Part shown: one piece after another, positions 728 through 22,898 of the stretch
Position numbering within the stretch: position 1 is the stretch's first letter
Layout: each line of letters begins with the position of its first letter
From: a virus
IMG/VR virus record: IMGVR_UViG_3300032224_000246
Coordinates: 1-26,351 of that record
DNA: 26,351 bases
Reading direction: 5' to 3' (one strand)
Position numbers and translations under genes: made by a program
Notes under the pieces: generated by a model
Seen by the model: only the letters and a program-made list of their open reading frames with translations
The model's database searches: none
What the model was told of the DNA's origin: nothing

Positions 728-1027
728 ATGGCAAATTATACAAATACAAGCCCGTGGTATTCTACTCAAATAACTAACAACTATCTAGATGTTCTTGATG
801 TAAGATCAGTTAGTTCTGAAAAAGATGACTTTCTCTATACTATACAAGCACAATATACTTATAGACCGGATTTGTTAGCTTATGACTTATATGGTGAATC
901 TACTTTATGGTGGGTCTTTATACAAAGAAATGCAGATGTACTACAGGATCCTATCTTAGATTTTATTCCTGGAACTAAAATTTATATACCTAAGAAAAGT
1001 AGTTTGTTTACAGTGTTAGGATTATAA
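728..1027 (+). CDS. 53: Baseplate wedge protein, gp53-like
   Basis: This 99-residue protein carries the pattern of the gp53 wedge family: a strand with YTIQAQYTYRPDLLAYDLYG (about residues 37-56), then LWWVFIQRNADVLQDPI and a closing IPGTKIYIP. In T4, gp53 (196 residues) locks neighbouring wedges together around the hub and has a LysM-like fold. This copy is about half that length and is essentially only the conserved core. The ATG starts one base after the upstream stop codon (724-726), so the genes are tightly coupled; the Shine-Dalgarno sequence is weak. The family call is confident because the RPDLLAYDLYG...WWVF signature is distinctive. Confidence 0.85.
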   Translation: MANYTNTSPWYSTQITNNYLDVLDVRSVSSEKDDFLYTIQAQYTYRPDLLAYDLYGESTLWWVFIQRNADVLQDPILDFIPGTKIYIPKKSSLFTVLGL

Positions 1028-4619: not shown

Positions 4620-4621
4620 TA

Positions 4622-5065
4622 ATGACCTCAAATGCTAATTTATACGACAAAATAGTTTTACCGGCAGCTAGTCAGCCGGACAACATTGGCCCTAAGATGT
4701 ATAAAGGGTTCAGTTCGATTAGTCCCGCTACAGAGAACTATAATCTTTATGATTTTGAATTAATTAAGCAAGATATTTTAAATCATTTTAACACTCGTCA
4801 GGGAGAACGATTAATGAATCCCGAATTTGGTTGTGTTATTTGGGACTTATTGTTCGAACCATTGACTGAAAATATTAAACAACTTATCCTTCAAAATGTT
4901 AATAAAATAATTAATTACGACCCCCGAGTTAAAGCTGAAACAGTCATTGTTACTAGCTATAGTCAAGGGATACAGATTCAATGTACATTAAAATTTGTGC
5001 CTTATAATATACAACAAACATTACAATTACAGTTTGATCAATCCAACGGTTTGATGGTTAAGTAA
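4622..5065 (+). CDS. 25: Baseplate wedge protein, gp25-like
   Basis: A 147-residue protein of the GPW/gp25 family, close in length to T4 gp25 (132 residues). Core motifs: YDFELIKQDILNHFNTRQGE (about 43-62), then RLMNPEFGCVIWDLLFEPL (about 63-81) and the helix and strand NIKQLILQNVNKIINYDPRV. The conserved Arg-Gly-Glu-Arg and Asn-Pro-Glu-Phe-Gly pattern is clear. Gp25 sits in the inner baseplate as part of the wedge core with gp6 and gp53 and helps start sheath polymerisation. An AGGA sequence at 4610-4613 lies eight bases before the ATG, inside the end of the spike gene. The gene is followed by the only sizeable gap in the window. Confidence 0.92.
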   Translation: MTSNANLYDKIVLPAASQPDNIGPKMYKGFSSISPATENYNLYDFELIKQDILNHFNTRQGERLMNPEFGCVIWDLLFEPLTENIKQLILQNVNKIINYDPRVKAETVIVTSYSQGIQIQCTLKFVPYNIQQTLQLQFDQSNGLMVK

Positions 5066-5115: not shown

Positions 5116-8100
5116 ATGAGTGCAACCGATAGACAAAATAATTTGCTGATATCAGAAGATTGGAAGAAAATTTATCAAAGTTTCCGTAACGCTGATTTTC
5201 AGAGCTACGATTTTGAAAATTTACGTAGGACTATGATTCAGTATCTGCGTACTAATTATCCCGAAGATTTTAACGATTATATCGAGTCTAGCGAATATCT
5301 TGCCTTAATTGATGTAGTGGCATTCTTGGGCCAAAGCATAGCTTTCCGTGTTGATTTAAATGCTCGTGAAAACTTTTTAGAACTAGCAAGTCGTCGAGAT
5401 AGTGTATTACGGTTAGCAAGATTAATTAGTTATAATGCTAAACGTAATATAGCCGCTCAGGGATTATTGAAATTTACCACAGTTCAAACAACAGAAAGAG
5501 TAGTCGATAGTAACGGTCGTAATATTGCTAATCAGGTTATAACTTGGAATGATGCTAGTAATACTAATTGGTACGATCAGTTTATTAAAGTTATTAATGC
5601 GGCATTACCGCAAACACAACAGTTTGGCAGTCCGGCAGCATCATCAAATATATACGGAATTCCAACAAGCCAATATAGATTTAACGCTACAAATACTAAT
5701 GTGCCTATTTTTTCTTTTACTAGCACAGTTGCTGGCAGAAGTATGAATTTTGAAATTACAAGTACAACCTTTAGTGGTCAAGACATTATTTACGAAGAAG
5801 CACCTAAGATAGGTAATTCTCCTGCCTGCATATACAGAGATGATGGTCACGGTGCAGGTAGTGCTAGCACAGGATTCTTTTTAAATTTCGTTCAAGGAAA
5901 TCTTCAAGCCGGCCAATTTACAATCACTCAGCCTAGTAGTAATGAAACAGTTGATATCGCCACACAAAATATTAATAATAACGATGTTTGGTTATACCAA
6001 TTAGACCAGAGTGGAATCGAAAATACATTATGGTCTCAGGTAAGTGCTACTACTGGTAATAATATTATCTACAATAGTCTTAATAAAAGTATTAAGAACA
6101 TATATTCAGTAATAACAAGAGCAGGCGATCAAATAAGTTTATCGTTTAGTGACGGTACGTTTGGTAATTTACCACTCGGAGATTTTAGAACATATTACAG
6201 AATTAGTAACGGATTAAGTTATACAGTTAATCCTGCTGATATTAAAAATGTAACAATTAACATACCTTATACTAGTTCATCTGGCACTGCTGAATCTCTT
6301 TCAATTACATTGGGCCTAGCTTCTTCTGTGAATAATGCAACTATATCAGAAGATAATACTACAATTAAAACTAATGCTCCACAAACATACTATACACAAA
6401 ATCGTATGATTACAGGAGAAGATTATAATATCAGTCCCTTGTCTGTTTCTCAACAAGTAGCTAAAGTTAAGAGTATTAACAGAACTAGTAGCGGCATAAG
6501 TCGTTATTTTGATTTATCAGACCCTACTGGAAAATATAGCTCGACAAATTTATTTGCCGATGATGGTATTATCTATCAAGATTTTTATACATCCGGAACA
6601 CAATTTAACTATGTGACTAAAACAGATATTGAAGGGGTTATATATAATCAAATATTCGATGTATTAGCAAGTTCGGATCTTTCAAACTTTTATTATAGTA
6701 ATTTTGTTAATTTTCTAACAGCGAGTCTTAATATTGCATGGTATAAAAAAACATCGGATACTGGTAGTTCAACAGGATATGTGGGGGATGTTGTTGATGC
6801 AGGAGCATATAAAGTTGGCTCATATACTAGTACCGATTTAAAATATTTAACAGTAGGATCTCTGATTAAATTTACTGCACCTGCCGGCCAATATTTTGAT
6901 ACTAAAAATTCAAATAAACTTGTAACAGGTTTAGCAACAACGCCGGGAGCAACATCATATATATGGGCTCAAGTAGTTAATGTTTCAGGAGACGGAACTG
7001 CAAATAACACAGGCGTATTATCTACAGGATTTGGACCTATCACATTGAATCAGTCGATCCCATCAAATGCTATATTGTCTAAACTAACACCACCACTAAC
7101 AACTATTATTAGTTCAGTAGTCATTACTACAATGATTGATTTAATATTTGCAAATAAACCATTTGGTTTACGATATGATGCAGAAAAACAATCATGGCAG
7201 ATTGTTTTTGAATCTAATCTTGATAGAGTGTCTGAATTTAGTTTAGGCAATCAAGGTGACACTACTAATACACAACAAGATTCTAGTTGGATACTATTGT
7301 TTACAACTAATAATGAATATTATACAGTAACATCGAGACTATTAAGATATGTGTTTGAAAGTGATAAACAAGTTCGTTTTTATTTTGATAGTACAACACC
7401 GATATATGATAGTTCTACAGGAACAGTAATTTCCGATGTAATTAACGTATTAAATATTAACACACAACCAGACCTAACTACCGCATTTACAACCGATCAA
7501 ACATGGAGTGTTGTAAAAGAATTTGTAGGCATCGATGGTTATATTGATAATAAGAAAATAATAATTAGTTTTTCTAAAGATGCAGATAACGGCGCAATTA
7601 TCGATCCGGAAACATTTTTAAATATTGTTGCTCCTACATCTAATCCATTAACGAAATATATTTTACAACAAAAATATTTGTTAAATGACGGTCAAGAAGA
7701 ATACAGGTACGTAAGTAATAGTGATAATAAAGTCATAATTGCTCCAACGCAAGCGTCAATATTAACTACAATAAGCAATTATGTAGACGGTCAGTATTTT
7801 TACTTTGTTGATACTAAGGTTGTAAAAGTTCTAACTAAAGCTACTGCGGCATTAACTCCTACTCTTGACTATAAAGTTTATGTAGGTCGAGATTCTTTAA
7901 AATTCCAATATACTCATAGTGCTGATTATAATTCAAGAATTGATCCTAGCTCTAGTAATATTATTGATGTTTATATTTTAACTAAGAACTATGATACTTC
8001 TTACAGACAATGGCTTGCTAATTCTAATTTAACATATCCTCTACCGCCTAGTTCGGATGAGTTATATAATTTAATATCACCAAAATTAAATTTAATTAAA

Positions 8101-8577
8101 TCTATAAGCGATGAGATCGTTTACCATCCGGTGACATATAAAGTGTTATTCGGAGCAACTGCGAGTACTGAAGTACAAGCAATATTTAAAGTTACGAAAA
8201 ATCCTAATAGTGTTGTATCAGATAATGATATTAAAGCTAGAGTTGTGACAGCACTGAACACGTTTTTTGCATTAGATAATTGGGATTTTGGTGATACATT
8301 CTATTTCTCAGAACTTTCAACTTATATAATGTTACAACTAACACCGGACATTACAAACTTCTTAATAGTTCCTATATCAAATGGACAGTACTTTGGTAGT
8401 CTATTTGAAATTGTGTGCCCGAGCAATCAAATTTTTATTAATGGTGCAACTGTTGATAACATTGAAATTATCGCTGGTATTACAGGAGCGAATATTAAAA
8501 CTGTAACAGGCAATGCATTGACTACTGTAAATTCAAATCAAAATGTAACTAGTGCAAATTATGGAGCAACAAATTAA
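5116..8577 (+). CDS. 6: Baseplate wedge protein, gp6-like (baseplate J family), enlarged
   Basis: A 1153-residue protein. The N-terminus is a good gp6 match: IYQSFRNADFQSYDFENLRR (about 19-38), YLALIDVVAFLGQSIAFRVD and ENFLELASRRDSVLRLARLI. The FSDGTFGNLPLGDF motif (about 345) and APQTYYTQNRMITGEDY (about 421) are baseplate-J hallmarks. The conserved C-terminal part (about 975-1112) has YHPVTYKVLFGA, a dimer-forming helical segment ending ALDNWDFGDTFYFSEL, and a final beta domain. In T4, gp6 dimers form the continuous inner ring of the baseplate and drive its shape change. T4 gp6 has 660 residues; the extra length here is beta-rich material between about 470 and 960. The stop codon overlaps the next ATG by one base. 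The start is set by the AGGA site six bases upstream. Confidence 0.88.
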   Translation: MSATDRQNNLLISEDWKKIYQSFRNADFQSYDFENLRRTMIQYLRTNYPEDFNDYIESSEYLALIDVVAFLGQSIAFRVDLNARENFLELASRRDSVLRLARLISYNAKRNIAAQGLLKFTTVQTTERVVDSNGRNIANQVITWNDASNTNWYDQFIKVINAALPQTQQFGSPAASSNIYGIPTSQYRFNATNTNVPIFSFTSTVAGRSMNFEITSTTFSGQDIIYEEAPKIGNSPACIYRDDGHGAGSASTGFFLNFVQGNLQAGQFTITQPSSNETVDIATQNINNNDVWLYQLDQSGIENTLWSQVSATTGNNIIYNSLNKSIKNIYSVITRAGDQISLSFSDGTFGNLPLGDFRTYYRISNGLSYTVNPADIKNVTINIPYTSSSGTAESLSITLGLASSVNNATISEDNTTIKTNAPQTYYTQNRMITGEDYNISPLSVSQQVAKVKSINRTSSGISRYFDLSDPTGKYSSTNLFADDGIIYQDFYTSGTQFNYVTKTDIEGVIYNQIFDVLASSDLSNFYYSNFVNFLTASLNIAWYKKTSDTGSSTGYVGDVVDAGAYKVGSYTSTDLKYLTVGSLIKFTAPAGQYFDTKNSNKLVTGLATTPGATSYIWAQVVNVSGDGTANNTGVLSTGFGPITLNQSIPSNAILSKLTPPLTTIISSVVITTMIDLIFANKPFGLRYDAEKQSWQIVFESNLDRVSEFSLGNQGDTTNTQQDSSWILLFTTNNEYYTVTSRLLRYVFESDKQVRFYFDSTTPIYDSSTGTVISDVINVLNINTQPDLTTAFTTDQTWSVVKEFVGIDGYIDNKKIIISFSKDADNGAIIDPETFLNIVAPTSNPLTKYILQQKYLLNDGQEEYRYVSNSDNKVIIAPTQASILTTISNYVDGQYFYFVDTKVVKVLTKATAALTPTLDYKVYVGRDSLKFQYTHSADYNSRIDPSSSNIIDVYILTKNYDTSYRQWLANSNLTYPLPPSSDELYNLISPKLNLIKSISDEIVYHPVTYKVLFGATASTEVQAIFKVTKNPNSVVSDNDIKARVVTALNTFFALDNWDFGDTFYFSELSTYIMLQLTPDITNFLIVPISNGQYFGSLFEIVCPSNQIFINGATVDNIEIIAGITGANIKTVTGNALTTVNSNQNVTSANYGATN

Positions 8578-11500
8578 TGGCTGATAATAATCCAAACGGT
8601 ACAAATGCGATTTCAAAAAATCTTTTACCAAATTATTATAACACTGAATCTAATAAAAAATTCTTACAGGCAACAGTTGATCAATTAGTACAACCTGGTG
8701 CTGTAAAAAAAGTTAATGGATTTATTGGAAGAAAGACAGCAAAATCTGCTAAAGGATCTGATGTTTATTTAAAAGCGGCCGATACTGTACGACAAGATTA
8801 TCAGTTAGAACCTGGATTTACCGTTAGTGATTCGTTAGGTAATACAACATTTTTTAAAGACTATATTGATTATATAAATCAACTTAGAGTGTTTGGTAGT
8901 AATGTCGATAATCATGCACGTTTAAATTTACAAGAGTTTTATAGTTGGGATCCGCATATTGATTGGGATAAATTTGTTAATTTTCAAAATTACTATTGGC
9001 TACCATTTGGTCCCGCTACTATTAAGATTTTTGGACAACAGTTAGCAGTTACTAGTACATATACTGTTAAATTAGAATTAGAAGGTTCGGATTATCAATA
9101 CATCTTCACGCCAGACGGATTAACACCTAACCCTGTATTAAAATTATACAGAGGACAGACCTACACATTTAATATTTCTAGTTTAGGCAATCCTTTAAGT
9201 TTTAAAACATCACGCTCACTAGGAGTTACTGATCGTTATGTCATCAGTGGTATTGATAATTATGGAGTTGAAAATGGAACTATAACATTTACAGTCCCTA
9301 ATAACGCACCAAATTTATTATACTATCAAAGCGAAACTGATATGAATGTCGGCGGTGTTGTTGAAATTTTTGACATTACTGAAGCTACATTTATAGATGT
9401 ATCGAAAGATATTTTAGGAAAACAAAGTTATATTCTTCCTAACGGTACACCACTAAGCAACGGTATGAAAGTATCGTTTGGCGGCAATGTTACTCCAGCT
9501 AAATTTGCCACAAGTGAATTTTATGTCGAGGGCGTCGGATCTGCAATTAAACTTATCAATAAAGATATTTTAGAAATAGCGGCTACCTATACAATAACAG
9601 AAGCAGTATACTTTGATAGTGTACCTTTTGATACACAACCATTTAGTGACAGCACAGGATTTGCTGGAACTAAAGATTATTTGTTAATTAATAGGGCTAG
9701 TAACGATCATAATCCGTGGAGTCGATATAACAGATGGTTCCATAAAGATGTCATTGAAACCTCAGCAAAACATAATGGTCGAGCACCATCTCTTGATCAA
9801 GATGCAAGGGCAACTAGACCTATAATTGAATTCAATGCAAATTTAAAATTATTTAATTTTGGAACAACAGCAGTTGACGATGTTGATGTAATCGATACCT
9901 TTACAATAGATGTGTTCTCGACTATCGAAGGAAGCGCAGGGTATAATGTTGACGGAACTCCCTTGTCTCAAGGTCAGTTGATTTTATTTACAGCTGACAC
10001 TGATCGATTAGTTAAAAATAATATCTATAAAGTTACATTTGTTAATATACAAGGTTTTAGGCAAATACATTTAGTTCCTCATGCAGAACCGTCATTAAAT
10101 CAAGTAGTTTTGATCAAACAAGGTACTAGAAATAAAGGCCAGATGTATTGGTTTAATGGAAGTACTTGGAAGTTATCACAACAGAAAAGTAATATAAATC
10201 AATCGCCATTATTTGATATTGTTAACGACGATAAGATTTCGTATGGCGATACTGATGTTTATCCGGGTTCTACTTTTAGAGGCACAGCGATATTTCTATA
10301 CAAAATTAGTACATCGAGCACTATCGATCCGACATTAGGTTTTGGCCTAACTTATAAAAATATTAATAATGTAGGCGATATTGTTTTTAATTTTACATTA
10401 GCAACTGATACCTTTGAATACAAATTACCTACTACAACAGCATTAACTAGCGTATCGATTAAAAAAGGTTACTTGATTAGCCAAGACTATGCTGGTAATC
10501 TATTGTATCAGAATGGATGGCAAAAATGTATAGCAACTACATTACAAGCTGGAATTCGAGTTTATAAAGATAGTAAATTAACTAATACATTTCCTATTGA
10601 TATTTTTAATGATAATTCGGAGTTAAATGACTTAGTTGTTAAAATTTACATTAATGGTATTAAACTACCTTCGTCCGATTGGTCGTTAGTTGATACTCCT
10701 AGATATAAAACTGTTAAATTAAAAAATTCAATTACTAGTAGTGATGTTTTGACTATAAAAACATATACTTCTCAGCCTATCAATGAAAATGGTTACTATG
10801 AAATACCTGTAAATTTACAAAATAATCCAATGAATAATGAGGTAGGTGATTTTACACTTGGCGAAGTTATCGATCATGTAGGTTCAATCGTTGATAATTT
10901 AACAAACTTTTCTGGAACTTATCCGGGAAATAGTAATTTAAGAGACTTAGGCAACATAAGTCCTTATGGCACAAAGTTTGTTCAACATAGCGGCCCTGCA
11001 AGTTTATCCACTTATCATATTACTTCTGAAATCAACAATATAGTTAGGGCGATTGAAAAAAATAGAGAAGATTATAATAATTTTAAACGTAATTTCATTA
11101 GTATTGCTTCTAATTTAGGAGTTGATACTGACCCGGTAACTCAAGTTGATTTAATCTTAGATAAGATTAATAAAGATAAACCTAAAGAATTCCCATACTA
11201 CTTTAGTGATATGGTGCCATACGGATCATATTCTACAACTACAATTAAAGTAGTTGACTATCGAATTAAGACTTATCCGTTAACTAACGTGTTTAATCTT
11301 GACGTACTATCAAATAAAGCAGTAGGTGTTTATTTAAACGGATTAACCGGCAGTCAACTATTATACGGATTAGATTATACATTTAATAGTCAAGGCTTTA
11401 TTGAATTAACAAATGCAGTCAATTTGAAAAATAATGATTTAATTACTATTAGAGAGTATGATAATACTGATGGATCATTTGTACCAGAAACTCCGACTAA

Positions 11501-14500
11501 ATTAGGAATGTGGCCAAAGTTCACTCCAAAAATTTATTTAGATACAACACTAATTAATCCTGTTAATTTAATACAAGGACATGACGGCAGCCTAACAGCG
11601 GCATATAATGATTATCGTGATGCCATTATATTGGAATTAGAAAAGCGAATTTTTAATAATATTAAAGTCAAATATAATACTGAAATTTTTGATATTGCAG
11701 ATATTATTCCTAGTTTTAACAGACCTAACGATTATTCATTAGATGAATTTAATCTAGTACTTGCTCCAAGTTTTTATAAGTGGACTAGTTTAATAGATCG
11801 AGATTTTAGTAAACCATTAAAGTACGACGTTAATAATTCATTCACTTACAACTATGCAGGACATTCTGGTCCTACCGGATATACTGTTCCGGGGTATTGG
11901 AGAGGTATTTATAGATATCTATTAGACACAGATCGTCCTAATATATGCCCGTGGGAAATGTTAGGATTTAGTCAAGAACCAGCTTGGTGGGTAGATACTT
12001 ATGGTCCTTCTCCATATACTTGCGATAATGCAGTTATGTGGAAAGATATTAGCGACGGAGTAATACGCCAGCCAGATACCGCTCCAATATATGTTAAAAA
12101 ATATGCCAAATCTTTTTTAACTAAACATATTCCAGTTGATGATTCCGGAAATTTAATAAGTCCAGCACAATCTGGTCTAGCTACAGGTACAGTGACATTT
12201 GCTACAGATAGTGATTACGTATTTGGTGATGTTGGTCCGGTAGAAGCCGCATGGCGCAGAAGTAGCTATTTTCCTTTTAGTATTATACTAGCATCGATGT
12301 TATTAACCCCTGCAAAGACATTTGGTCTACTATTAGATAGATCTAGAATTGTTAGAAATCTTGCAGGACAGTTAGTTTATAGTGAAACTGGATTAAGGAT
12401 AACCCCTGCCGATGTAGTAATTCCTAGTATAAGTGTAAGTAAAGATAGAATACAAACAGCAGGTATAATAAACTATCTAACAAACTATATACTAAGTGAT
12501 AATTTAAAATCATATTCAAGCTATCAATATGATTTAATGAATATTTCTCCAAGAATAAGTCATCGAATTGGGGCATTTACCAGTAAAGAAAAATTTAATT
12601 TATTATTAGATTCAAAAACATATGCATCATCTAGTAGTGTATTTGTTCCACAAGAAAATTATAAAATTATTTTAAACAGTTCAAGTCCTGTTAAAAAGAT
12701 TACATACAGCGGTATAATTATAACTAAAGTGTCTGACGGATTTGAGATAAAAGGGTATAGTCAAACGCAACCATTCTTTAAATATTATCAATATACACAA
12801 TCAGGTATAACGATTAATGTTGGCGGAATATCGGAAAAATTTAATACCTGGACTCCTCAGGAAACCTATAGTGCCGGTTCAATTATTAAATTGAATCAAA
12901 ATTATTATAGAGTACTTAGAACCCATACTACAACAAATAACTTTGAAAGTTTAAATTATCAAAGCATACCGAGCCTTCCTATTGTTGGCGGCCGCTCAGC
13001 GACTTTTAGAAAAACTTGGAAAAGAACTAATGCTCTAATAGCACCATACGGTACACGATTTAAAACAGTTCAGGATGTAGTAGATTTTATTTTAGGTTAC
13101 GGTGAATATTTAAAAGATCAAGGATTTATCTTTGATGAATATAATAAAAATCTAGGTACCGTTACTAATTGGGAAACTAGTGCAAAAGAATTTATGTTCT
13201 GGACAACACAGAACTGGAGTACCGGTGAGGACAAATGGACTAACTGGATTCCTAATGTTTTAATACCATTTAATTCTATTGTAAAATATAATGGAGATTA
13301 TTACAGAGCAAATTCTAACATCCAACCTAGTGCAATCTTTGATGTTAATAATTTTGTTAAACTTGACAATCTCAGTACAGTCGGTAGTGGAGTAATTAGT
13401 CTAAGTCCAAGCGCCGATAAAATTACATTTAAGACAACATTAAGTATAGTAGATGATATTTCTAATCCTTTCAATGGATATGAAGTTGTTAAAGTTGATG
13501 GAACTCCGTTAGATCCACATTTTATTAATTCATATAGAGAAGATAATTCTGTTAGTTATTCTTCAACAACTAACGACGGAATATACGGAGCAAGTTTTTA
13601 TCTAGTACAAAAAGAACAAGTAGTAATTTTAGATAATACTACATTGTTTAACGATACAATCTATAATCCAGAAAGTGGATATAGACAAGAAAGAATTAAA
13701 GTTGCAGGCTATGTCAGTGTTGGATGGTATGGTGGATTTGATGCTCCGGGTTTTATATTTGACGAAGCACGTATAGAAGAATGGAGCTCATGGTCAGATT
13801 ATAATCTAGGTGATATTGTAAAATATAAACAATTCTACTATAGCGCCAAAACATTTTTACAGGGACAAGCATTATTTAATTCCAGCGAATGGGTAAAATT
13901 GGATAAACCACCATCTGCTGGCCTGTTACCTAATTGGACTTATAAAGCTGGACAATTTACAGATTTTTACAGCCTTGATAGTGATAATTTTGATTCAATG
14001 CAACAAAAAGTTGCTCAGCACTTAATCGGTTACCAAAAAAGATCATATCTCGATAATATTATTAAAGATGATGTAAGTGAGTTTAAATTTTATCAGGGAA
14101 TGATACGCGAAAAGGGTACACAAAATAGTCTTAATAAATTATTTGATGTGTTAAGTTCTGAAAATAAAGAAAGCTTAGGATTTTATGAAGAATGGGCAAT
14201 TCGTTTAGGACAGTACGGCGCCAGCGGGTCGTTTGAAAATATTGAATTTGTATTAGATGAAGCACAATTTAAAATTAATCCTCAAGGATTTTATCTAGTA
14301 CAACAGCCTGATTTTAATGCATTAGATTATATCATACGACAAACTCCAAATAGTGTATATTTAAAACCGTTAGGATATAATAATAATCCCTGGCCTATAT
14401 TAAAAAATTATCAATCTTATCTAAGAAGTGCAGGATATGTTAGGGAAGCAGATGTTTTTATTACTATAAAACAAATTTCAGATATTGCCAATTATGATGT

Positions 14501-17500
14501 AGAAACATTTAATAATGGTTCTTATATTTGGTGTACATTTGAAGGAATATCATGGAATGTTTACAGATTTACAGATGTAAATTTTAAAGTTACAAACGTA
14601 TCTTATGATCAAAATATTTTAACCATCACACTTAAAGATGTTGTAACGCTACCAGTAGGAACATGGATTGGAATTAGTCAAACAACTATCTTAAACGGAT
14701 TCTATCAAATCACTAGTGTAAAATTGAATACATTTACAGTAAGTGCAGACATACCGGGATGGTCTAACCCCTTTAACGAAAATGCAAGAATAATCGTGTA
14801 TGCATTATTAAGTCAACGAGCTGATTCTATCGATAATATAGATGATATTATTCCGAGAAAACTAACATCAGGTGAAAAACTTTGGACTGATAATTCAGGA
14901 GATGGGACCTGGGCAACTTGGACTTACGACCCAGTATACACAAAATTATTGTTAACCAACACAAATCCAGATAGCCAATTAAACTATGGTAGATCTGTAT
15001 CTATTAATGCAAACGGTAACATACTTGGAATATCAACATCTAACGGTGATATAATAACATGGGATAAAGCTAGCCCAAAAACACCTTGGATACAGCGTCA
15101 ATATATTACTAAGCCTGTTGTTACAAATCATGCTATGGATTCAAGTTTGTATGCTACTGTTGCAACTTTTAGTAACGACGGTACTTGGTTAGTAACGGGA
15201 AGCCCTAGCGTCGGATATGTCCATACTAGATACAAAGGTACATATAATGTATTCAGTACTTATAATATAAACGATATTGTATCTAATGGATCACTTTATT
15301 TTTATAGGGCATTACAAGATCTTATTCCTGGACGTGTACCTCCGACTGGCAAAACTGCAAGCATCTATTGGGAAAGTATTCCTTATATCCCAGTTGAAGA
15401 AACCGGAACAGCTAGCTCTCTAAATGCACAGGGAGTTGTACATCTGTACAAGAAAGATTCTGATAATATCTATTCTTTAGTTGATAGCATTGTCAGCCCG
15501 CGACCACAAGCAAATGAGTTTTTTGGTTCAAGTATTCAATTTTTTAGCTCGTCAAGTTCTAGTATAGATCAATTAATTGTCGGAGCACCCGGAAGCAACT
15601 CTTTTTATAAGTTTACATTTGGAGCTGTTGCGGAAGCAACATCGGCATATAATCCTGTAGGATCGATCGGAGGAATAATTTCGCTTACATCAACTGCTGG
15701 AATATTACCAGGTATGGCTGTTAACGGACTAGGATTTACAAGCGATCAGACAGTACTTTTGGTATTAAATGATACACAGGTAGAACTAAACGGAAGTCCA
15801 AATAGTACACCATCTGGTGTATTAACTTTCAGCGTTGTCGGTTGGTTCTTTACAGAATATTCACAGTCAACATCATATAGCATACCAGCTGGAAGAAATT
15901 TTGGAGCTAATATAGTAGTTAGCGGAGACTGTAGTTCAGCGTTTGCGCTTTCGTCGATTAATGGAATAAATTTAAGTAAAGTTGCAGTTAAACATACTAA
16001 TATTTTGTCGCAAACAATAACCGGAACAAGTATAGCTTTTGGAACATCATTAGCACTTTCGAACGATGGAACTTATCTAGCAATATCTGATCCGCTAGCA
16101 TCTAGTGTGAAGATTAATCAAGGTGCAGTTTACATTTATAAATTAGTCGGTAACTTATATACTTTATATCAGACTATTGTAAATCATGATCCTGAAAATT
16201 CTGGGTACTTCGGTCAAAAAATATCATTTATGTCTGATAAAACATTAGTAGTTTATAGCTCAAACGGTGATACAACACAGTCAATGACGTTTGATACTAA
16301 TCAAACAACGTTTGATAAGAAGAGTACAACATTCATTACAACGCATATTGATAGCGGAAAGATCGATATCTATGATAACTATTCTTCAAATTGGGTTTAT
16401 AGTGAAACGTTATCATCATCAAATGTTGTTAGTGACGGGTACGGAACCGGACTAGCAGTAGGAAAAGACCATGTTATCGTCGGTGCACCATTATCATTAG
16501 ATCAAGGGTTAACCTCGGGTAGGGTATACGATTATTACAAATCTTCAAATTCATTTACTTGGAAAAAAACTCACTCAGAAATTATTAAACCTGATATAAG
16601 CAAAGTTAAAAGAGCATTTTTATACAACAGAAAAACAGGACACCTAGTAGCTCATTTAGATACACTTGATCCCTTACAAGGCAAGGTAGCCGGTCCAGCA
16701 AAAGAAGAGATAACATTTAATTCTTTTTATGATCCAGCTGTTTATTCAGTAGGTGATTCTTCAGTAGTCGTTAATTCAAATAAACCATGGACTAAGGATC
16801 AAGTAGGTAAACTTTGGTGGGATTTAAGAACTACTAAATTTATTGAAGCTTATGATAGCGATATAGTTTACAGAACAAGTTCTTTTAATTCTCTTGCGGT
16901 AGGCGCATCAGTTGATGTATACGAGTGGGTTTCAACAACATATCTTCCTGTTGATTGGGATGCCTTAGCAGATACTGAGGAAGGATTAACAAAAGGCATA
17001 AGTGGAATTAGTTTATATGGTAATACTGCTTACAGCGTTAGTCAAGTATACGATACAATCAGCCAGACATTTAGAAATACATATTATTTCTGGGTAAAGA
17101 ATAAAAAAATTATTCCTAATATTCCAGGTAGATATATGTCTGCTAGCGATGCAGCCACTTTAATTGAAAATCCAAGAGGACAAGGATATCGTTACCTATC
17201 GTTAACAGGAATAGATTCATTTAATTTAGTAAATGTTAAACCTATATTAAAAGGTGATGATGTTGTACTCTCAGTTGAATATTGGATCACTGATAAAATA
17301 GATCAGAATGTTCATAGTCATTGGAAGATAATAAGCAATGACAAGAATACTACATTGCCTAATAATATTGAAAGAAAATGGATTGATAGCTTGTGTGGAA
17401 AAGATATTAATGGATTACCAGTACCCGATTTAAAACAACCGGTGAAATTGCGTTACGGTATTGAGAACCGCCCACGTCAGAGTATGTTTGTTAATCGATT

Positions 17501-20500
17501 TGAGGCCTTAAAACAATTTGTCGAATTATCTAATATAGTTTTATCTGATAATCAAATTGTACAATCGAGAAATATTACAGCCTTAGAGAGTTACGATGCT
17601 TATCCGGATTATGCAACATTAGTTGACGGCACAAAAACTTTACCTAGCGGAGCATATGATACTACGGTTGATTATGTTTCGCTATCATTATTAGAATTAT
17701 CGTATGTTAGTGTTAGTGCATTTAAACGACCTAACATATCACCTGTAATAGTTGACGGTAAGATAACCGGAATCACAATAAATTATCCAGGAATTGGATA
17801 TCTATATCCTCCATTTATTGAGATTGTCGGTAGCGGTAAACGAGCAGTTATCCGTGCAAAAATTAACTTAATTGGTCAAATTGTTGGAGCAGATATATTA
17901 GACAGCGGTGAAGGATACAATTCATATACGTCGGCGATTGTTAGGGATTATTCTGTACTAGCATATAGCGATGAGCAATCAAACGGTGCTTGGGCAATTT
18001 ACTCTTATGATCCTACTGGCAAAGTCTGGTCAAGAGTTAAATCTAAAACCTATGACGTTAGAAATTATTGGAAAAAGATTGATTGGTATGCTACAGGTTT
18101 TGATCAATTTAGTTCAGCAGATCACGGTGTTGATACATTTAGTGATCTAAGTTTAATTAATTCCTCAATTGATCAGTTAGTGCTTGTAAGAAATACAACT
18201 ACTAGCGGCTGGCAATTACTTTTAAAATATGCTAATTCAACTAGTATTGATTGGACACAAAGTTATAAAGTAGTAGGTGTACAAGACGGCACGATTCAGT
18301 TAAGTTCTAACTTATATCAATTTGCAAATACCAGCATCGGTTATGATGATTCGACATTTGATGGAGCAGTATTTGATGGCGAAGCAAGTAATGAATTAAG
18401 AATTATTTTAAATTCTTTAAAGAATGATATTTTTATTGATGATCTTAAAAATAATTATTTAGATTTATTCTTTTCAAGTGTGCGCTATGCATTGAGTGAA
18501 CAGACATATCTCGATTGGATCTTTAAAACTAGTTTTGTCAAGGCGATGCATAATGTTGGAGACCTTGGCCAGCCTGTAACTTATCAAACAGATAATCTTT
18601 CTAATTTTAAAGAATATGTCGCTGAAGTTAAACCGTTTAGGACAAAAGTACGTGAATACATTAGTGCATATTCCAAGGTTGACCTAGCCGAGACGCTGGT
18701 TAGCGATTTTGACTTGCCATCAGTTCGAGAAGGTAGTAAATTAGTTCCGATAAACACGTATATACTAAATGGAAAAATCCAAGCAGATAATCCTGCTATA
18801 CAAACATACCCATGGAAAAATTGGTTAGATAATGTTGGTTTTATTGTAACAGAACTTCGACTAGTAAATGGAGGTAGTGGATATATTACAGAACCGATCG
18901 TAAAAATTACTAGTAATTCCGGCTCAGGAGCAACTGCAAGAGCATTTCTCGCTAACGGTAAAGTTAATAGAGTGGTACTACTAACTAACGGAATTGGATA
19001 TTTGGCGGCTCCGACAGTTACAATTGAAGGCGGTCTATCTGCTGCCGGTGTTAAGGCAACTGCTGTGGCAGTTATTGGAAATAGTATTTCATCCGATCAG
19101 CCTCACGGTGTGGTGAGATCAACACTGGTAAAGATTAAGTTTGATAGATTAACACAATCATATTTTATTACACAGTTACAACAAACTGAAACCTTTGTTG
19201 GCTCTGGTGCAAAAGTACAGTTTCCCTTAACATGGGCACCGGATATTAGAATTGGACAAAGCACTGTTACTATTACTGCTCCTGGACAAACTAGCGAAAT
19301 ATTAGTACTAAGAGATTTATATACATTGAATGTTGTAAAATCAACCTCTAAAGGGTTTACATCTTATTCTGGTTCAATAACCTTTACTACAGCTCCGGCA
19401 AATTTTTCAGTAATTAAAGTAACCTATCTTAAAGATTGGGATTTATTAAACGCCGCGGATAGAACACAATTCTATTATGATCCACAAACAGGACAATTAG
19501 GAAATGATCTTTCACAATTGATGACTGGTATTGATTACGGCGGTGTCGTTGTTAATGGGCTAGGATTTGACGTTGCTGCCGGATGGGGAGCTCTTCCTTA
19601 TTATACAGATAAGTGGGATACGTTTGATGCTACTTATAGCGACTACATTGTAACGGTTGCCGCAGGAACACATTCGTTTACGTTACCCTATACACCGCAA
19701 TCTGGTACGATATTGAACACATACTATTCTCGTAAAAATACTTTAACATATACTAGCAACGGTATTGATCTAAAATATTCATACACTGCTGTTAATAGGA
19801 CTCCGGTTGTTACAGCATCAATCGCACAAACAGCACTAGCATCGACATTAACATCGGGAACTGCTGGAACAAAAATATTAAAAGTAAATTCTACAACTAA
19901 AATTAAAGTTGGTGATATAGTTACTTGTTCTAGTGTTGCATCTTTTGCATTAAACACAATAGTTACAACAATTAATTCAAGTGATACTGTTACACTAAAT
20001 CAAATTTTATATTTAAATATTCCTACCGGAACTAGTATTACATTTACTAGAACACTATCGCAACCGACAGATTTATCTATATTTGCTAACGGTAATATAA
20101 TATTAACTAGTCCATTATTAACAGGTACTAATCTAAATATTATTACTCAGTTAGAACCAATTCGTTTAGATGACCCGCAATACGGAACACTTCAGCAAAC
20201 AAATACTAATGCAATTATGACTTCAGTAACTGCATCTGGATCTAGCGCAATTTTTACAATACCTAATACATTTACAGTAACTGAAGGTGATCAATTTATT
20301 TGGAGACAAAGTACTAGTGATGGCTCTATCAAGCCTCAAGATACTGATTATGATACTGCATTAAGTGGAGGAAATCTTGCATATAGTACTGCCACAGGAT
20401 TATCAGCTGATGATATTCTAGTTGACGGTGATGGACTAGTAACCCCAACTACTAGCCCTGCCCCAGAAGAAGTAGTACCAGGCCAAGTTGTTGATGCAGT

Positions 20501-22898
20501 TGCTATTAAAGTTTATGATCAATTACAATCTGGTAGTGCTAATATTAAAGTTGACAACTACATCGCTGATGGAACAACATCATCTTTTAAAATTACACAA
20601 GTGCCGTCTAGTATTAGAGCTGTAATTGTAAAAATTGGCCAAACTATAAAAACATATGCAACTGATTATACTGTTGATTTTGCAAAACAAACTGTTAATT
20701 TTGTAAGCGCACCTGCAACAAATGCAACTGTATCGATCTTCAGTTTAGGATTCAATGGCACGAATATTCTAGATCTAGATTATTTTATTGCAGACGGCAG
20801 CACTTTAGAGTTCATAACTAAATCACCTTGGTTAGATCCTGTGACTAGTTTAGTTTATCTCGACGGAATAGCAGTTAGTCCAGAATTATTTAAAACTGAT
20901 AATACTTATGTCAGTGCTAATAGAATTGGTCTTAGATTTAGTACTCCTCCGACTAACGGAAAATTAATTAATTATATTATAGTCAGCGGCAATCAACAAA
21001 CATTTGCTATTACTAAGACAGAAAGAATTATTCCTACAGGAACAGACACATACGTATTATCATATCCAATTGGAAATAGTTTGCCCTTAGAAAGTAATAT
21101 GATTGTGCGTGTTGATCAACAAATACTTTCCGGACCGAATAATAATTATTTTATAATAACAGATAAATTGTTATCATACACTATCGATCCTACAACGTTC
21201 TTGCCATATAGCGTGCCAATTACTGATATTAAAGTTTTGGCAGATGGTAATTTATTATCTATTGGCAGTGACTATACTGTTGATCTTAGTGGTATTACAA
21301 TTACTATTAATCAAAACGTTTATACGTTATATGAAGGTATGAATTTAATTATTAGTATAGTTACTGACCAAGAATATACATATAATGCTACAACAAAACA
21401 AATTAAATTTAATCAAGCATATGATAATACTCATATAATCGAAGTAATTAGTTCTTATAAGCATGATGTTCTTGAAATTGAAAGAACTGATGTTAATGTA
21501 TCTTCAAGTTTAGTCTTAACACCGGATTCAGTACAATATTTTTATTATAAATCAATTACCGGTGGAATTTTAAATATCAATCGTTCTGTAATTAACGACA
21601 GCTATGTCTGGGTAATTAAAAATGGCCGTCTATTAACTCCGGCAATCGATTACAAATTAAATGATGATCGTAAGACAATTACATTGTCAACTGATAATGT
21701 TTTAACTGATCAAATTACATTAATGACATATGGTAGTAACGTGCTAGTGTCCGGAATAGCATATATGCAATTTAAAGATATGCTAAATCGAGTACATTTT
21801 AAACGCTTAAATCTCAACAAAGAAACACAGCTAACTAACGATTTGCATTATAATGACATTAGTATAACAGTTGATGATGCTAGTAAATTTGATGCACCTA
21901 ATCCTTCACAAAATAAACCTGGAATTATAGAAATTCGAGGAGAGCGTATTGAATTTTTTGCAATAACTGGTAATACATTAAGCAAACTCCGTCGCGGTAC
22001 ATTAGGTACAGGTACGCCTCTAATACACCGAGCCGGATCTTGGGTTCAAGAAATCGGAGCAAGTGAAACAATACCGTATGTAGAAAATACAATCACTGAG
22101 CAAATTATCAGCGATGGTACAAATTTTGTTGGCACTACTTTTATTCCAACATTAGATACTAACAGTTATAGTACTTGGTTCAGTGAATATGGGTATGTGT
22201 TTAAGGATTCATACAGCCCAATCACAACATATAATGTCAAGGATGCAGTCATTTATAATGGATTATATTATATTAATACTAAATCTTCTACAAATAAAAT
22301 TCCAACTAACACTACATATTGGAAACAGTTTGCATTAAGTATCCCAGTTGGATACGGTCAAAGTAATGATATCGAAGTGTTTGTTGGCGGATATGATACT
22401 AGTGCATCTTGGTCAGCTAACACTACATATGCTATAGATGCTATTGTTACTGTAGGATCGTATACTTATAAATGTATTACTGCCCACACAAGTAGTACTA
22501 TATTCTTAAATGATAATATTTATTGGTCGTTCTTTATAGGAAATATTCGTCTTAAAAAGAAACCTTACAAGGTGCACAATATTAATCAAGCTCCATATAG
22601 TCCTAACGGTGATATACAATTAGATGCAGATTTTGCAGTTGATGGAACATCAAAGAGAATAAGATTAACAAATAAACTAGCAGTTGGAACACAGGTTACA
22701 GTAGTTAAGCGCCAAGGTATTGAATGGGATAGCACTGTAAACGTGTTGAATGATAACGGTAATATTACTAAATTTCTAAGAGCAGTCCCCGGAACTTGGT
22801 ATAAAGACTTTAAACAAATAAGTACAAGTAGTACTGCTACAACGTTTGATAACAATACATCGTTTGATGGCATAACAATAACATTTGATCAAGGATAA
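8577..22898 (+). CDS. Giant baseplate wedge/fibre protein (gp7 position), 4773 residues
   Basis: One uninterrupted frame. Scaffold blocks that I recall from large structural proteins of marine T4-like phages are: residues 1-150 (LLPNYYNTESNKKFLQATV...YQLEPG); 380-578 (NPWSRYNRWFHKDV, ADTDRLVKNNIYKV, SPLFDIVNDD); about 990-1260 (IQGHDGS, CPWEMLGF, APA-like WWVDTYG); about 1800-1970 (IGYQKRSYLDNIIKDDVSEF); 2778-2982 (EWVSTTYLPVDW, RQSMFVNRFEALKQF); 3302-3382; 3652-3722 (GVVVNGLGFDVAAGWGALPY); and 4401-4499 (FKDMLNRVHFKRLNLN, LRRGTLGTG). Between them sit a cupredoxin-like fold (169-267), carbohydrate-binding-like modules, a beta-propeller (about 2130-2680) and GxGY repeats. Position after gp6 suggests the outer wedge, as gp7 in T4 (1032 residues), perhaps fused to fibre parts. 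No signal peptide or membrane segment is seen. The ATG shares one base with the gp6 stop, which suggests translational coupling. Confidence 0.75.
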   Translation: MADNNPNGTNAISKNLLPNYYNTESNKKFLQATVDQLVQPGAVKKVNGFIGRKTAKSAKGSDVYLKAADTVRQDYQLEPGFTVSDSLGNTTFFKDYIDYINQLRVFGSNVDNHARLNLQEFYSWDPHIDWDKFVNFQNYYWLPFGPATIKIFGQQLAVTSTYTVKLELEGSDYQYIFTPDGLTPNPVLKLYRGQTYTFNISSLGNPLSFKTSRSLGVTDRYVISGIDNYGVENGTITFTVPNNAPNLLYYQSETDMNVGGVVEIFDITEATFIDVSKDILGKQSYILPNGTPLSNGMKVSFGGNVTPAKFATSEFYVEGVGSAIKLINKDILEIAATYTITEAVYFDSVPFDTQPFSDSTGFAGTKDYLLINRASNDHNPWSRYNRWFHKDVIETSAKHNGRAPSLDQDARATRPIIEFNANLKLFNFGTTAVDDVDVIDTFTIDVFSTIEGSAGYNVDGTPLSQGQLILFTADTDRLVKNNIYKVTFVNIQGFRQIHLVPHAEPSLNQVVLIKQGTRNKGQMYWFNGSTWKLSQQKSNINQSPLFDIVNDDKISYGDTDVYPGSTFRGTAIFLYKISTSSTIDPTLGFGLTYKNINNVGDIVFNFTLATDTFEYKLPTTTALTSVSIKKGYLISQDYAGNLLYQNGWQKCIATTLQAGIRVYKDSKLTNTFPIDIFNDNSELNDLVVKIYINGIKLPSSDWSLVDTPRYKTVKLKNSITSSDVLTIKTYTSQPINENGYYEIPVNLQNNPMNNEVGDFTLGEVIDHVGSIVDNLTNFSGTYPGNSNLRDLGNISPYGTKFVQHSGPASLSTYHITSEINNIVRAIEKNREDYNNFKRNFISIASNLGVDTDPVTQVDLILDKINKDKPKEFPYYFSDMVPYGSYSTTTIKVVDYRIKTYPLTNVFNLDVLSNKAVGVYLNGLTGSQLLYGLDYTFNSQGFIELTNAVNLKNNDLITIREYDNTDGSFVPETPTKLGMWPKFTPKIYLDTTLINPVNLIQGHDGSLTAAYNDYRDAIILELEKRIFNNIKVKYNTEIFDIADIIPSFNRPNDYSLDEFNLVLAPSFYKWTSLIDRDFSKPLKYDVNNSFTYNYAGHSGPTGYTVPGYWRGIYRYLLDTDRPNICPWEMLGFSQEPAWWVDTYGPSPYTCDNAVMWKDISDGVIRQPDTAPIYVKKYAKSFLTKHIPVDDSGNLISPAQSGLATGTVTFATDSDYVFGDVGPVEAAWRRSSYFPFSIILASMLLTPAKTFGLLLDRSRIVRNLAGQLVYSETGLRITPADVVIPSISVSKDRIQTAGIINYLTNYILSDNLKSYSSYQYDLMNISPRISHRIGAFTSKEKFNLLLDSKTYASSSSVFVPQENYKIILNSSSPVKKITYSGIIITKVSDGFEIKGYSQTQPFFKYYQYTQSGITINVGGISEKFNTWTPQETYSAGSIIKLNQNYYRVLRTHTTTNNFESLNYQSIPSLPIVGGRSATFRKTWKRTNALIAPYGTRFKTVQDVVDFILGYGEYLKDQGFIFDEYNKNLGTVTNWETSAKEFMFWTTQNWSTGEDKWTNWIPNVLIPFNSIVKYNGDYYRANSNIQPSAIFDVNNFVKLDNLSTVGSGVISLSPSADKITFKTTLSIVDDISNPFNGYEVVKVDGTPLDPHFINSYREDNSVSYSSTTNDGIYGASFYLVQKEQVVILDNTTLFNDTIYNPESGYRQERIKVAGYVSVGWYGGFDAPGFIFDEARIEEWSSWSDYNLGDIVKYKQFYYSAKTFLQGQALFNSSEWVKLDKPPSAGLLPNWTYKAGQFTDFYSLDSDNFDSMQQKVAQHLIGYQKRSYLDNIIKDDVSEFKFYQGMIREKGTQNSLNKLFDVLSSENKESLGFYEEWAIRLGQYGASGSFENIEFVLDEAQFKINPQGFYLVQQPDFNALDYIIRQTPNSVYLKPLGYNNNPWPILKNYQSYLRSAGYVREADVFITIKQISDIANYDVETFNNGSYIWCTFEGISWNVYRFTDVNFKVTNVSYDQNILTITLKDVVTLPVGTWIGISQTTILNGFYQITSVKLNTFTVSADIPGWSNPFNENARIIVYALLSQRADSIDNIDDIIPRKLTSGEKLWTDNSGDGTWATWTYDPVYTKLLLTNTNPDSQLNYGRSVSINANGNILGISTSNGDIITWDKASPKTPWIQRQYITKPVVTNHAMDSSLYATVATFSNDGTWLVTGSPSVGYVHTRYKGTYNVFSTYNINDIVSNGSLYFYRALQDLIPGRVPPTGKTASIYWESIPYIPVEETGTASSLNAQGVVHLYKKDSDNIYSLVDSIVSPRPQANEFFGSSIQFFSSSSSSIDQLIVGAPGSNSFYKFTFGAVAEATSAYNPVGSIGGIISLTSTAGILPGMAVNGLGFTSDQTVLLVLNDTQVELNGSPNSTPSGVLTFSVVGWFFTEYSQSTSYSIPAGRNFGANIVVSGDCSSAFALSSINGINLSKVAVKHTNILSQTITGTSIAFGTSLALSNDGTYLAISDPLASSVKINQGAVYIYKLVGNLYTLYQTIVNHDPENSGYFGQKISFMSDKTLVVYSSNGDTTQSMTFDTNQTTFDKKSTTFITTHIDSGKIDIYDNYSSNWVYSETLSSSNVVSDGYGTGLAVGKDHVIVGAPLSLDQGLTSGRVYDYYKSSNSFTWKKTHSEIIKPDISKVKRAFLYNRKTGHLVAHLDTLDPLQGKVAGPAKEEITFNSFYDPAVYSVGDSSVVVNSNKPWTKDQVGKLWWDLRTTKFIEAYDSDIVYRTSSFNSLAVGASVDVYEWVSTTYLPVDWDALADTEEGLTKGISGISLYGNTAYSVSQVYDTISQTFRNTYYFWVKNKKIIPNIPGRYMSASDAATLIENPRGQGYRYLSLTGIDSFNLVNVKPILKGDDVVLSVEYWITDKIDQNVHSHWKIISNDKNTTLPNNIERKWIDSLCGKDINGLPVPDLKQPVKLRYGIENRPRQSMFVNRFEALKQFVELSNIVLSDNQIVQSRNITALESYDAYPDYATLVDGTKTLPSGAYDTTVDYVSLSLLELSYVSVSAFKRPNISPVIVDGKITGITINYPGIGYLYPPFIEIVGSGKRAVIRAKINLIGQIVGADILDSGEGYNSYTSAIVRDYSVLAYSDEQSNGAWAIYSYDPTGKVWSRVKSKTYDVRNYWKKIDWYATGFDQFSSADHGVDTFSDLSLINSSIDQLVLVRNTTTSGWQLLLKYANSTSIDWTQSYKVVGVQDGTIQLSSNLYQFANTSIGYDDSTFDGAVFDGEASNELRIILNSLKNDIFIDDLKNNYLDLFFSSVRYALSEQTYLDWIFKTSFVKAMHNVGDLGQPVTYQTDNLSNFKEYVAEVKPFRTKVREYISAYSKVDLAETLVSDFDLPSVREGSKLVPINTYILNGKIQADNPAIQTYPWKNWLDNVGFIVTELRLVNGGSGYITEPIVKITSNSGSGATARAFLANGKVNRVVLLTNGIGYLAAPTVTIEGGLSAAGVKATAVAVIGNSISSDQPHGVVRSTLVKIKFDRLTQSYFITQLQQTETFVGSGAKVQFPLTWAPDIRIGQSTVTITAPGQTSEILVLRDLYTLNVVKSTSKGFTSYSGSITFTTAPANFSVIKVTYLKDWDLLNAADRTQFYYDPQTGQLGNDLSQLMTGIDYGGVVVNGLGFDVAAGWGALPYYTDKWDTFDATYSDYIVTVAAGTHSFTLPYTPQSGTILNTYYSRKNTLTYTSNGIDLKYSYTAVNRTPVVTASIAQTALASTLTSGTAGTKILKVNSTTKIKVGDIVTCSSVASFALNTIVTTINSSDTVTLNQILYLNIPTGTSITFTRTLSQPTDLSIFANGNIILTSPLLTGTNLNIITQLEPIRLDDPQYGTLQQTNTNAIMTSVTASGSSAIFTIPNTFTVTEGDQFIWRQSTSDGSIKPQDTDYDTALSGGNLAYSTATGLSADDILVDGDGLVTPTTSPAPEEVVPGQVVDAVAIKVYDQLQSGSANIKVDNYIADGTTSSFKITQVPSSIRAVIVKIGQTIKTYATDYTVDFAKQTVNFVSAPATNATVSIFSLGFNGTNILDLDYFIADGSTLEFITKSPWLDPVTSLVYLDGIAVSPELFKTDNTYVSANRIGLRFSTPPTNGKLINYIIVSGNQQTFAITKTERIIPTGTDTYVLSYPIGNSLPLESNMIVRVDQQILSGPNNNYFIITDKLLSYTIDPTTFLPYSVPITDIKVLADGNLLSIGSDYTVDLSGITITINQNVYTLYEGMNLIISIVTDQEYTYNATTKQIKFNQAYDNTHIIEVISSYKHDVLEIERTDVNVSSSLVLTPDSVQYFYYKSITGGILNINRSVINDSYVWVIKNGRLLTPAIDYKLNDDRKTITLSTDNVLTDQITLMTYGSNVLVSGIAYMQFKDMLNRVHFKRLNLNKETQLTNDLHYNDISITVDDASKFDAPNPSQNKPGIIEIRGERIEFFAITGNTLSKLRRGTLGTGTPLIHRAGSWVQEIGASETIPYVENTITEQIISDGTNFVGTTFIPTLDTNSYSTWFSEYGYVFKDSYSPITTYNVKDAVIYNGLYYINTKSSTNKIPTNTTYWKQFALSIPVGYGQSNDIEVFVGGYDTSASWSANTTYAIDAIVTVGSYTYKCITAHTSSTIFLNDNIYWSFFIGNIRLKKKPYKVHNINQAPYSPNGDIQLDADFAVDGTSKRIRLTNKLAVGTQVTVVKRQGIEWDSTVNVLNDNGNITKFLRAVPGTWYKDFKQISTSSTATTFDNNTSFDGITITFDQG
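9081..9378 (+). other. Cupredoxin-like domain lacking metal ligands (in giant protein)
   Basis: Residues about 169-267 read like a small blue-copper-type beta sandwich: LKLYRGQTYTFNISSLGNPL, then FKTSRS, ENGTITFTVPNNAP and LYYQSETDMNVGGVVEIFDI. In copper-binding members the loop after LYY carries Cys and His. Here it reads QSETDMNVGG, and the whole segment has no His or Cys. The fold is therefore probably structural or a binding module. The call rests on pattern memory. Confidence 0.5.
12840..13905 (+). other. Three carbohydrate-binding-like short modules (in giant protein)
   Basis: Three stretches have the CBM5/12-type layout of an aromatic start, Y..G.IV.(Y), then YY.(A/V) and a closing W or F. 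They are TWTPQETYSAGSIIKLNQNY (near 12849), WIPNVLIPFNSIVKYNGDYY (near 13246) and WSSWSDYNLGDIVKYKQFYY (near 13785) ending in WVKLD. Such modules of about 40-50 residues are frequent in chitinases and in phage tail proteins. Sugar binding is inferred only; the exposed aromatic residues are present. Confidence 0.5.
14970..16550 (+). other. Probable seven-bladed FG-GAP/integrin-like beta-propeller (in giant protein)
   Basis: Residues about 2130-2680 contain seven units of the type (F/Y)G..(I/V)..S.DG..L.(V/I)..P followed by a strand like GxVxxY. Unit cores: LNYGRSVSINANGNILGIS; LYATVATFSNDGTWLVTGSP; FFGSSIQFFSS...LIVGAPG; NFGANIVVSGDCSSAFALS; AFGTSLALSNDGTYLAISDP with GAVYIYK; YFGQKISFMSDKTLVVYSS with GKIDIYD; and YGTGLAVGKDHVIVGAPLS with GRVYDYYK. 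This matches FG-GAP propellers as in integrin alpha chains, but the calcium-binding DxDxDG loops are missing. Extra modules are inserted within unit 2 and between units 3 and 4. A surface or receptor-binding role is inferred. Confidence 0.6.
17760..17940 (+). repeat. GxGY-type repeat segment, first copy (in giant protein)
   Basis: Residues about 3062-3122 read ITGITINYPGIGYLYPPFIE, then a short strand-turn-strand, then GQIVGADILDSGEGY. Two half-units each consist of a strand, G.GY and P.I.I. A related segment lies at 18856-19035. These repeats recur in phage tail proteins and resemble small beta-solenoid turns. Confidence 0.5.
18856..19035 (+). repeat. GxGY-type repeat segment, second copy (in giant protein)
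   Basis: Residues about 3427-3487 contain LRLVNGGSGYITEPIVKITS, then GSGATARAFLANGKVNRVVL and TNGIGYLAAPTVTIEGG. This is a classic pair of the motif GGSGY..P.V.I..G.GATA.A...G.V. It is cleaner than the first copy at 17760-17940. Confidence 0.6.
22205..22540 (+). other. Two C-terminal carbohydrate-binding-like modules (in giant protein)
   Basis: Near the end of the giant protein two more CBM5/12-like units stand side by side: SYSPITTYNVKDAVIYNGLY followed by IPTNTTYWKQF, and SWSANTTYAIDAIVTVGSYT followed by FLNDNIYWSFF. Each has a start strand, a Y....A(I/V)..(G/N) turn and a closing YW. They lie between the block with LRRGTLGTG and the terminal block with LKKKPYKVHNINQAPYSP. Confidence 0.5.

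Follow-up and report, generated by a model that had tools for sequence, protein, structure and literature searches.

A predicted seven-bladed FG-GAP-type β-propeller within a giant baseplate protein of uncultured phages

The question raised by this locus is whether a giant structural protein of a phage carries a propeller of the integrin type in its interior, and what such a domain would do there. The window analysed here is a virus record of 26,351 bases, itself a fragment, that contains an open frame of 4773 residues (8577..22898, on the plus strand, as are all features given below). The initial annotation, made from the letters and their open frames, had placed a seven-bladed integrin-like propeller at 14970-16550, with blocks of a wedge scaffold on both sides.

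The giant, a baseplate/virion structural protein, matches phrog_10938, "virion structural protein" (E 0, 1033.5 bits), and its scaffold is homologous to this family of RaK2/PA5oct-like jumbo phages over most of its length. Collinear homologues of 3,326-4,555 residues occur in the cultured jumbo phages PA5oct, RaK2, SCTP-2, Atu_ph07, Phosso and others, and nine cultured phages share several collinear blocks with the giant. The genes before it match gp53-, gp5-, gp25- and gp6-type baseplate proteins. The gp53-like wedge subunit (728..1027) matches phrog_7145 (8.1e-28), the gp25-like wedge subunit (4622..5065) matches the baseplate wedge families phrog_261 and phrog_43, with PF04965 GPW_gp25 noted for the syntenic gene of GAP32, and the gp6-like wedge subunit (5116..8577) matches phrog_10646 (1.6e-298) and phrog_219. 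The stop codon of the gp6-like gene and the ATG of the giant overlap by one base, which puts the giant directly after gp6, in the slot of T4 gene 7; the T4 genes 53 to 6 and 7 have a similar order, and 6 and 7 overlap briefly. The gene after the giant starts with a segment matching the fibre-connector/wedge families phrog_677 and phrog_958. In PA5oct, the homologue and the proteins encoded next to it are listed among those that ESI-MS/MS detected in the virion. From gene position and the mass spectrometry of homologues, we infer that the giant is a virion baseplate wedge protein. The name "wedge protein" has indirect support, from position and from the PA5oct data; no relationship with T4 gp7 was detectable. 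When nine blocks of the giant were compared with seven gp7 sequences by HHalign, the probability was at most 0.9%, and nothing exceeded 1.6% with gp6, gp8 and gp10 included as controls. The AF2 model of scaffold residues 930-1910 is mediocre (pLDDT 68), with structure matches confined to CBM-like parts, and gp7 is not among the matches listed by two structure searches made with it.

The propeller itself is predicted with much better scores. AF2 on residues 2055-2701 gives a pLDDT of 88.3 and a pTM of 0.83, and 28 strands of the model are assignable as seven blades of four, provided that the strand at residues 2122-2126 closes blade 7. Residues 2119-2668 (14931..16580) are, in this model, a closed seven-bladed β-propeller. 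The annotated extent was slightly short; the domain takes in the N-terminal closing strand. Among solved folds, the closest are seven-bladed propellers of integrin alpha and WD40 proteins, with Z from 28.8 to 27 over 300-350 residues; the top match is the integrin alpha propeller 4wk2 in Foldseek (E 2.8e-10) and integrin alphaL 5e6s in VIA-align (Z 28.8 over 342 residues). Because the WD40 scores are nearly equal to those of the integrins, the term "integrin-like" rests on the FG-GAP sequence together with the fold and not on Z alone. Pfam FG-GAP_2 (PF14312, cut-off 23) matches the propeller fragment at 2.5e-10 and 40.8 bits and the whole giant at 27.8 bits, while single blades in a six-frame scan fall just under the cut-off, at 19.8-21 bits. 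The same family is found in 47 of 58 relatives at E <= 0.01 (best 1.7e-12). A sequence search of the PDB gives weak matches with the propeller, including integrin alpha-L at E 0.047, and nothing useful with the whole giant; the NCBIfam search gives no match. The calcium loops, DxDxDG, which had been described as missing, are absent from all 58 relatives.

The count of seven FG-GAP-like units within about 550 residues is borne out by the repeats. By eye, the units start at residues 2135, 2191, 2313, 2440, 2485, 2542 and 2620 (nt 14979-16434). A profile of blade 5, built from the 58 relatives and aligned by HHalign to the propeller profile, finds exactly seven places, with probabilities of 99.7, 96.9, 95.1, 80.8, 32, 24 and 3.7%; an eighth match is noise, and against the eight other blocks of the giant the profile reaches at most 0.8%, with no blades outside the propeller. 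This profile by itself matches blades 3, 6 and 7 only weakly, and their assignment depends on the structure model; because the weakest of the seven matches is below 4%, the blade count likewise depends in part on the model.

The initial annotation did not describe the large insertions that some blades carry, nor the homologues that lack a propeller. The probable closing (velcro) strand, the fourth of blade 7, is at 14940..14954 (aa 2122-2126, strand 68-72 of the model); it probably pairs with blade 7, and residue 1 of the integrin chain aligns at residue 65 of the model, near this strand. Blade 1 (14979..15110, aa 2135-2178) is defined by the DSSP strands of the model and the repeat profile. 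Blade 2 (15144..15500, aa 2190-2308; repeat profile and model) is interrupted between strands B and C, so that the 54 columns of the blade-5 profile are spread over 116 positions; its BC loop holds a CBM5/12-like module (15210..15428, aa 2212-2284), supported by an insert profile and by loop lengths. Blade 3 (15510..15866, aa 2312-2430) is assigned from the model and is matched by the blade-7 and blade-4 profiles. Its CD loop (15609..15830, aa 2345-2418; model and loop lengths) forms a long β-arm; its two modelled strands, 23 and 18 residues long, carry a small domain of the G-I-x-x-G-M-x-V-x-G type. Blades 4 (15888..16028, aa 2438-2484) and 5 (16029..16184, aa 2485-2536) are seen by both repeat profile and model, and blade 5 also has an FG-GAP_2 match at 16035-16139. 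Blade 6 (16197..16412, aa 2541-2612; repeat profile and model) has an insertion of about 33 residues in its BC loop. Strands A-C of blade 7 (16428..16541, aa 2618-2655) come from the model and an FG-GAP_2 match at 16431-16529.

Scaffold flanks the propeller on both sides, as had been proposed; this is supported by matches to cultured phages and by two conserved anchor blocks. The upstream anchor (13974..14291, aa 1800-1905) is found by its HMM in all 119 spans and also served in choosing relatives without reference to the propeller, and the downstream anchor (16602..17546, aa 2676-2990) matches PA5oct, SCTP-2, XaC1, GAP32, RaK2 and others. Immediately before the propeller is a scaffold strand, WATWTY (14913..14927, aa 2113-2117), and at its end is another, TWKKTH (16560..16577, aa 2662-2667). 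The first aligns to WAVAVVSG in PA5oct and to WAVYYFN in SCTP-2, both of which have an empty site, and the second aligns to the strand that comes directly after the first in the same two phages. When the flanks of the window's family (up to aa 2118 and from aa 2658) are joined into one profile, this crosses the junction almost free of gaps, to WAVAVVSGSTITNIRS in PA5oct with 99.0% probability and to WAVYYFNSGKWNLDYK in SCTP-2 with 97.5%. By this junction, the propeller occupies the tip of a scaffold β-hairpin; according to these alignments it is a clean insertion of a closed domain into a larger scaffold. RaK2-like phages align over 309 columns, without the hairpin.

The propeller is optional in this protein family. 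Among relatives picked by a scaffold block (A2) outside the propeller, and so independently of it, all 75 metagenomic relatives that have both anchors score more than 280 bits with the propeller profile, and the propeller HMM finds nothing in the anchored span of the nine cultured jumbo-phage homologues. Between the anchors lie 646-1424 residues in the propeller clade and 222-227 in RaK2-like phages; a Vibrio phage has 286, PA5oct 339 and SCTP-2 525. In Atu_ph07 and Phosso the interval is about 1,550 residues long and contains no blades; an early BLAST overlap of Atu_ph07 with window residues 2490-2660 was not upheld as blades. No propeller-bearing relative came up when 50,697 phage records were searched by tblastn with three different propellers. 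A0A6J5L0K2, a protein of an uncultured Caudovirales phage in UniProt/BFVD that was deposited from metagenomes, is 38-40% identical over the propeller and is evidently a relative; its annotation, "YHYH domain-containing protein", makes no mention of a propeller. Contigs of up to 259 kb (L115) suggest that the propeller clade is one of jumbo phages.

Several observations concern other modules in these proteins. In SCTP-2 gp140 (L005:10210-21633), about residues 2100-2350 appear by eye to form a LamG/concanavalin-like domain instead of the propeller. Three loci (L075, L077 and L092) have anchor spans of 1423-1424 residues, with about 650 extra residues in the propeller region. A "GSGY" β module of the window (18861-19127, aa 3429-3517), located downstream of the propeller, matches residues 2541-2632 of the Atu_ph07 protein (L009) with 38% identity, there between the anchors and in the propeller's place; the different positions indicate that modules move within these giants. 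A separate Atu_ph07 protein, the 393-residue "hemagglutinin" A0A2L0UZX4, matches the propeller fold in a viral library (E 3.3e-12, TMt 0.66). FG-GAP propellers are also present in several giant viruses, where the names of some of the proteins refer to collagen-like or LamG domains.

Of the loops of a four-stranded blade, AB and CD belong to one face of the propeller, BC and DA to the opposite one. Length variation among the 58 relatives is concentrated on the BC/DA face of the predicted model, where the standard deviation of loop length has a median of 2.9, compared with 0.22 for AB/CD (Mann-Whitney p = 0.006). The AB hairpins are nearly invariant in length except 3A-3B, and the CD loops keep a constant length in blades 1, 2, 6 and 7; exceptions in some relatives are 3C-3D, with up to 181 residues, and 5C-5D, with 235 in one. 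The blade-3 arm, which sits on the less variable face, has a nearly constant length in most relatives (quartiles of 3C-3D 80-81 residues) and a conservation of 0.56, like that of the strands. Variation peaks in the BC loop of blade 2, which ranges from 8 to 379 residues and contains none, one or two CBM5/12-like modules or other β modules; even near relatives with cores about 62-68% identical have inserts of 84-164 residues here. In L016 and L017, a segment of about 70-80 residues lies inside the blade-2 CBM-like module, giving an insert within an insert within an insert.

Modules of the blade-2 type are not confined to the propeller, and at least four or five CBM5/12-like modules are seen elsewhere in the giant. 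The insert profile, built from 14 blade-2 BC inserts, also finds CBM-like modules at residues 1424, 1735, 4542 and 4611, and the scaffold model has folds of the chitin-binding type at residues 1422-1467, 1549-1600 and 1726-1777. The first of these (12840..12977) is found by the profile and matches chitin-binding folds with Z 7.0 and an rmsd of 1.2 over 45 residues; the second (13221..13376) is weak by profile; the third (13752..13907) has both profile and structure matches. The best phage match of the pair at residues 1549-1777 is a protein of the baseplate receptor-binding complex of Agrobacterium phage Milano (8fqc), with Z 8.5 over 96 residues and a high rmsd of 19.5. Two further modules at 22200..22529 (aa 4542-4651; by profile 4542-4586 and 4611-4651) match Pfam CBM_5_12 at 9.3e-9. 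This Pfam family is found in 7 of the 58 relatives and is not reported for the window's own propeller region. The modules probably bind glycans.

The one-sided length variation and the CBM-like content of the blade-2 loop suggest a display platform for exchangeable modules, and there are precedents for propellers in phage host recognition that count for this reading (PMC4901313). We put at roughly 60% the probability that the propeller is a calcium-independent platform displaying exchangeable, probably glycan-binding modules toward the host. The closed FG-GAP propeller at the hairpin tip of the giant baseplate protein would act as a rigid display platform that needs no calcium. Its conserved core, the constant AB and CD hairpins and perhaps the conserved blade-3 arm would anchor it, while the BC/DA face, above all the BC loop of blade 2, would point to the host and carry exchangeable, often CBM5/12-like modules, which may touch host surface glycans as the baseplate lands. 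The copy number would be six or a multiple of six. The initial annotation had proposed one large, rigid platform per wedge, facing the receptor; the length variation and the CBM-like insertions are compatible with such an orientation but are no proof of it. On these computational grounds, the propeller probably contributes to host recognition by these viruses. Several points count against a display platform: in residue conservation, the short loops of the two faces do not differ (p = 0.28), the CD loops 3C-3D and 5C-5D also bear insertions in some relatives, blade number and faces are taken from a predicted model, and the giant has no detectable homology to T4 gp7. CBM-like modules are, in addition, found in phage structural proteins that have not been shown to bind sugar.

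The main rival is that the propeller is an internal assembly hub that docks tail fibres or neighbouring wedges, with modules that contact virion proteins and not the host. It would fit the conserved length of the blade-3 arm, the fibre-connector/wedge segment with which the next gene begins, and the nozzle propeller of SU10, which docks a fibre and carries inserted domains (PMC9509320). A blade-2 insert that ranges over 8-379 residues and differs between close relatives is unexpected for a conserved protein-protein dock, however, and the content of this insert is CBM-like, so that we regard a hub as unlikely, if still a serious contender. That the propeller is an enzyme, for example a polysaccharide lyase or hydrolase that targets the host envelope, is very improbable: many β-propellers act on glycans and are often accompanied by CBM modules, and the propeller lyase 2z2o is in the fold list (Z 27.1), but no enzyme family is matched in the Pfam and NCBIfam searches, no sialidase Asp-box is present in the 58 relatives, and conservation is highest mainly at FG-GAP glycines and aromatics, with no polar cluster. 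Equally far-fetched is a passive expansion in one clade, with no receptor role and loops that vary for want of constraint, since, even if the cultured homologues manage without a propeller and short loops are equally conserved on both faces, all 75 sampled loci retain the domain, its core is nearly constant, and its length variation is one-sided, not general.

The propeller core has a mean identity of 40%, compared with 64% for the scaffold, and its divergence tracks that of the scaffold (Mantel r = 0.73, p = 0.001). This correlation indicates a long shared inheritance of propeller and scaffold, during which the decorations turned over. A recent insertion, considered from base composition, was rejected: the G+C content of 36% differs too little from the 31-34% of the flanks to be of use, and the Mantel result favours vertical inheritance.

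Seven-bladed propellers at phage baseplates are already known; what is new is that this one is of the FG-GAP type and lies within a giant polypeptide of the baseplate. The literature searched, which covers a minority of subscription journals, describes no baseplate protein with an FG-GAP propeller. The propeller shares with that of integrin alpha its seven four-stranded blades, FG-GAP-type motifs, an N-terminal closing strand and a large domain insertion on the BC/DA face near blades 2-3, which is where the integrin I-domain is inserted. It differs in having no calcium loops in any of the 58 relatives, in being only 15-17% identical, in belonging to a viral structural protein, and in having its hot insertion site within blade 2, whereas that of integrin lies between blades 2 and 3. 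The cultured giants of phrog_10938 from RaK2, PA5oct, SCTP-2, Atu_ph07 and Phosso have the same scaffold on both sides and the same position after gp6, but hold 222-339 residues or unrelated modules between the anchors in place of a propeller. PhiKZ gp131C (PDB 4GBF) is a seven-bladed propeller at the baseplate periphery of a jumbo myophage, proposed to be receptor-binding or enzymatic (PMC4901313); it is the C-terminal domain of a 771-residue protein, whereas the present one is an internal insertion, and as a candidate homologue it was rejected for lack of detectable profile similarity. Gp45 of Staphylococcus phage phi11 is a baseplate host-recognition protein that also has a propeller platform, with a possible GlcNAc pocket (PMC4901313), but it has five blades and is a separate trimeric protein of a siphophage with a Gram-positive host. 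In SU10, as in T7-type nozzles, a seven-bladed propeller is inserted in a tail structural protein, the nozzle-protein platform, and itself bears inserted domains; a blade-1 loop docks the fibre (PMC9509320). There, however, the phage is short-tailed, the propeller lines the tail channel and the extra domains lie between blades 2 and 3.

A further proposal, tentative and on balance doubtful, is that a large uncultured, probably jumbo clade built an integrin-like host-recognition turret into its giant protein and that its host range evolves by swaps of the blade-2 insert, not by fibres. If the display of modules toward the host is correct, a calcium-free FG-GAP propeller in a structural wedge protein would be the acceptor for glycan-binding modules on one face, and a metagenomic phage clade of wide distribution would have a receptor-type propeller inside its giant baseplate protein. 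The empty sites in PA5oct and SCTP-2, together with the hypervariable blade-2 loop, point to residues that may set the host range of these phages.
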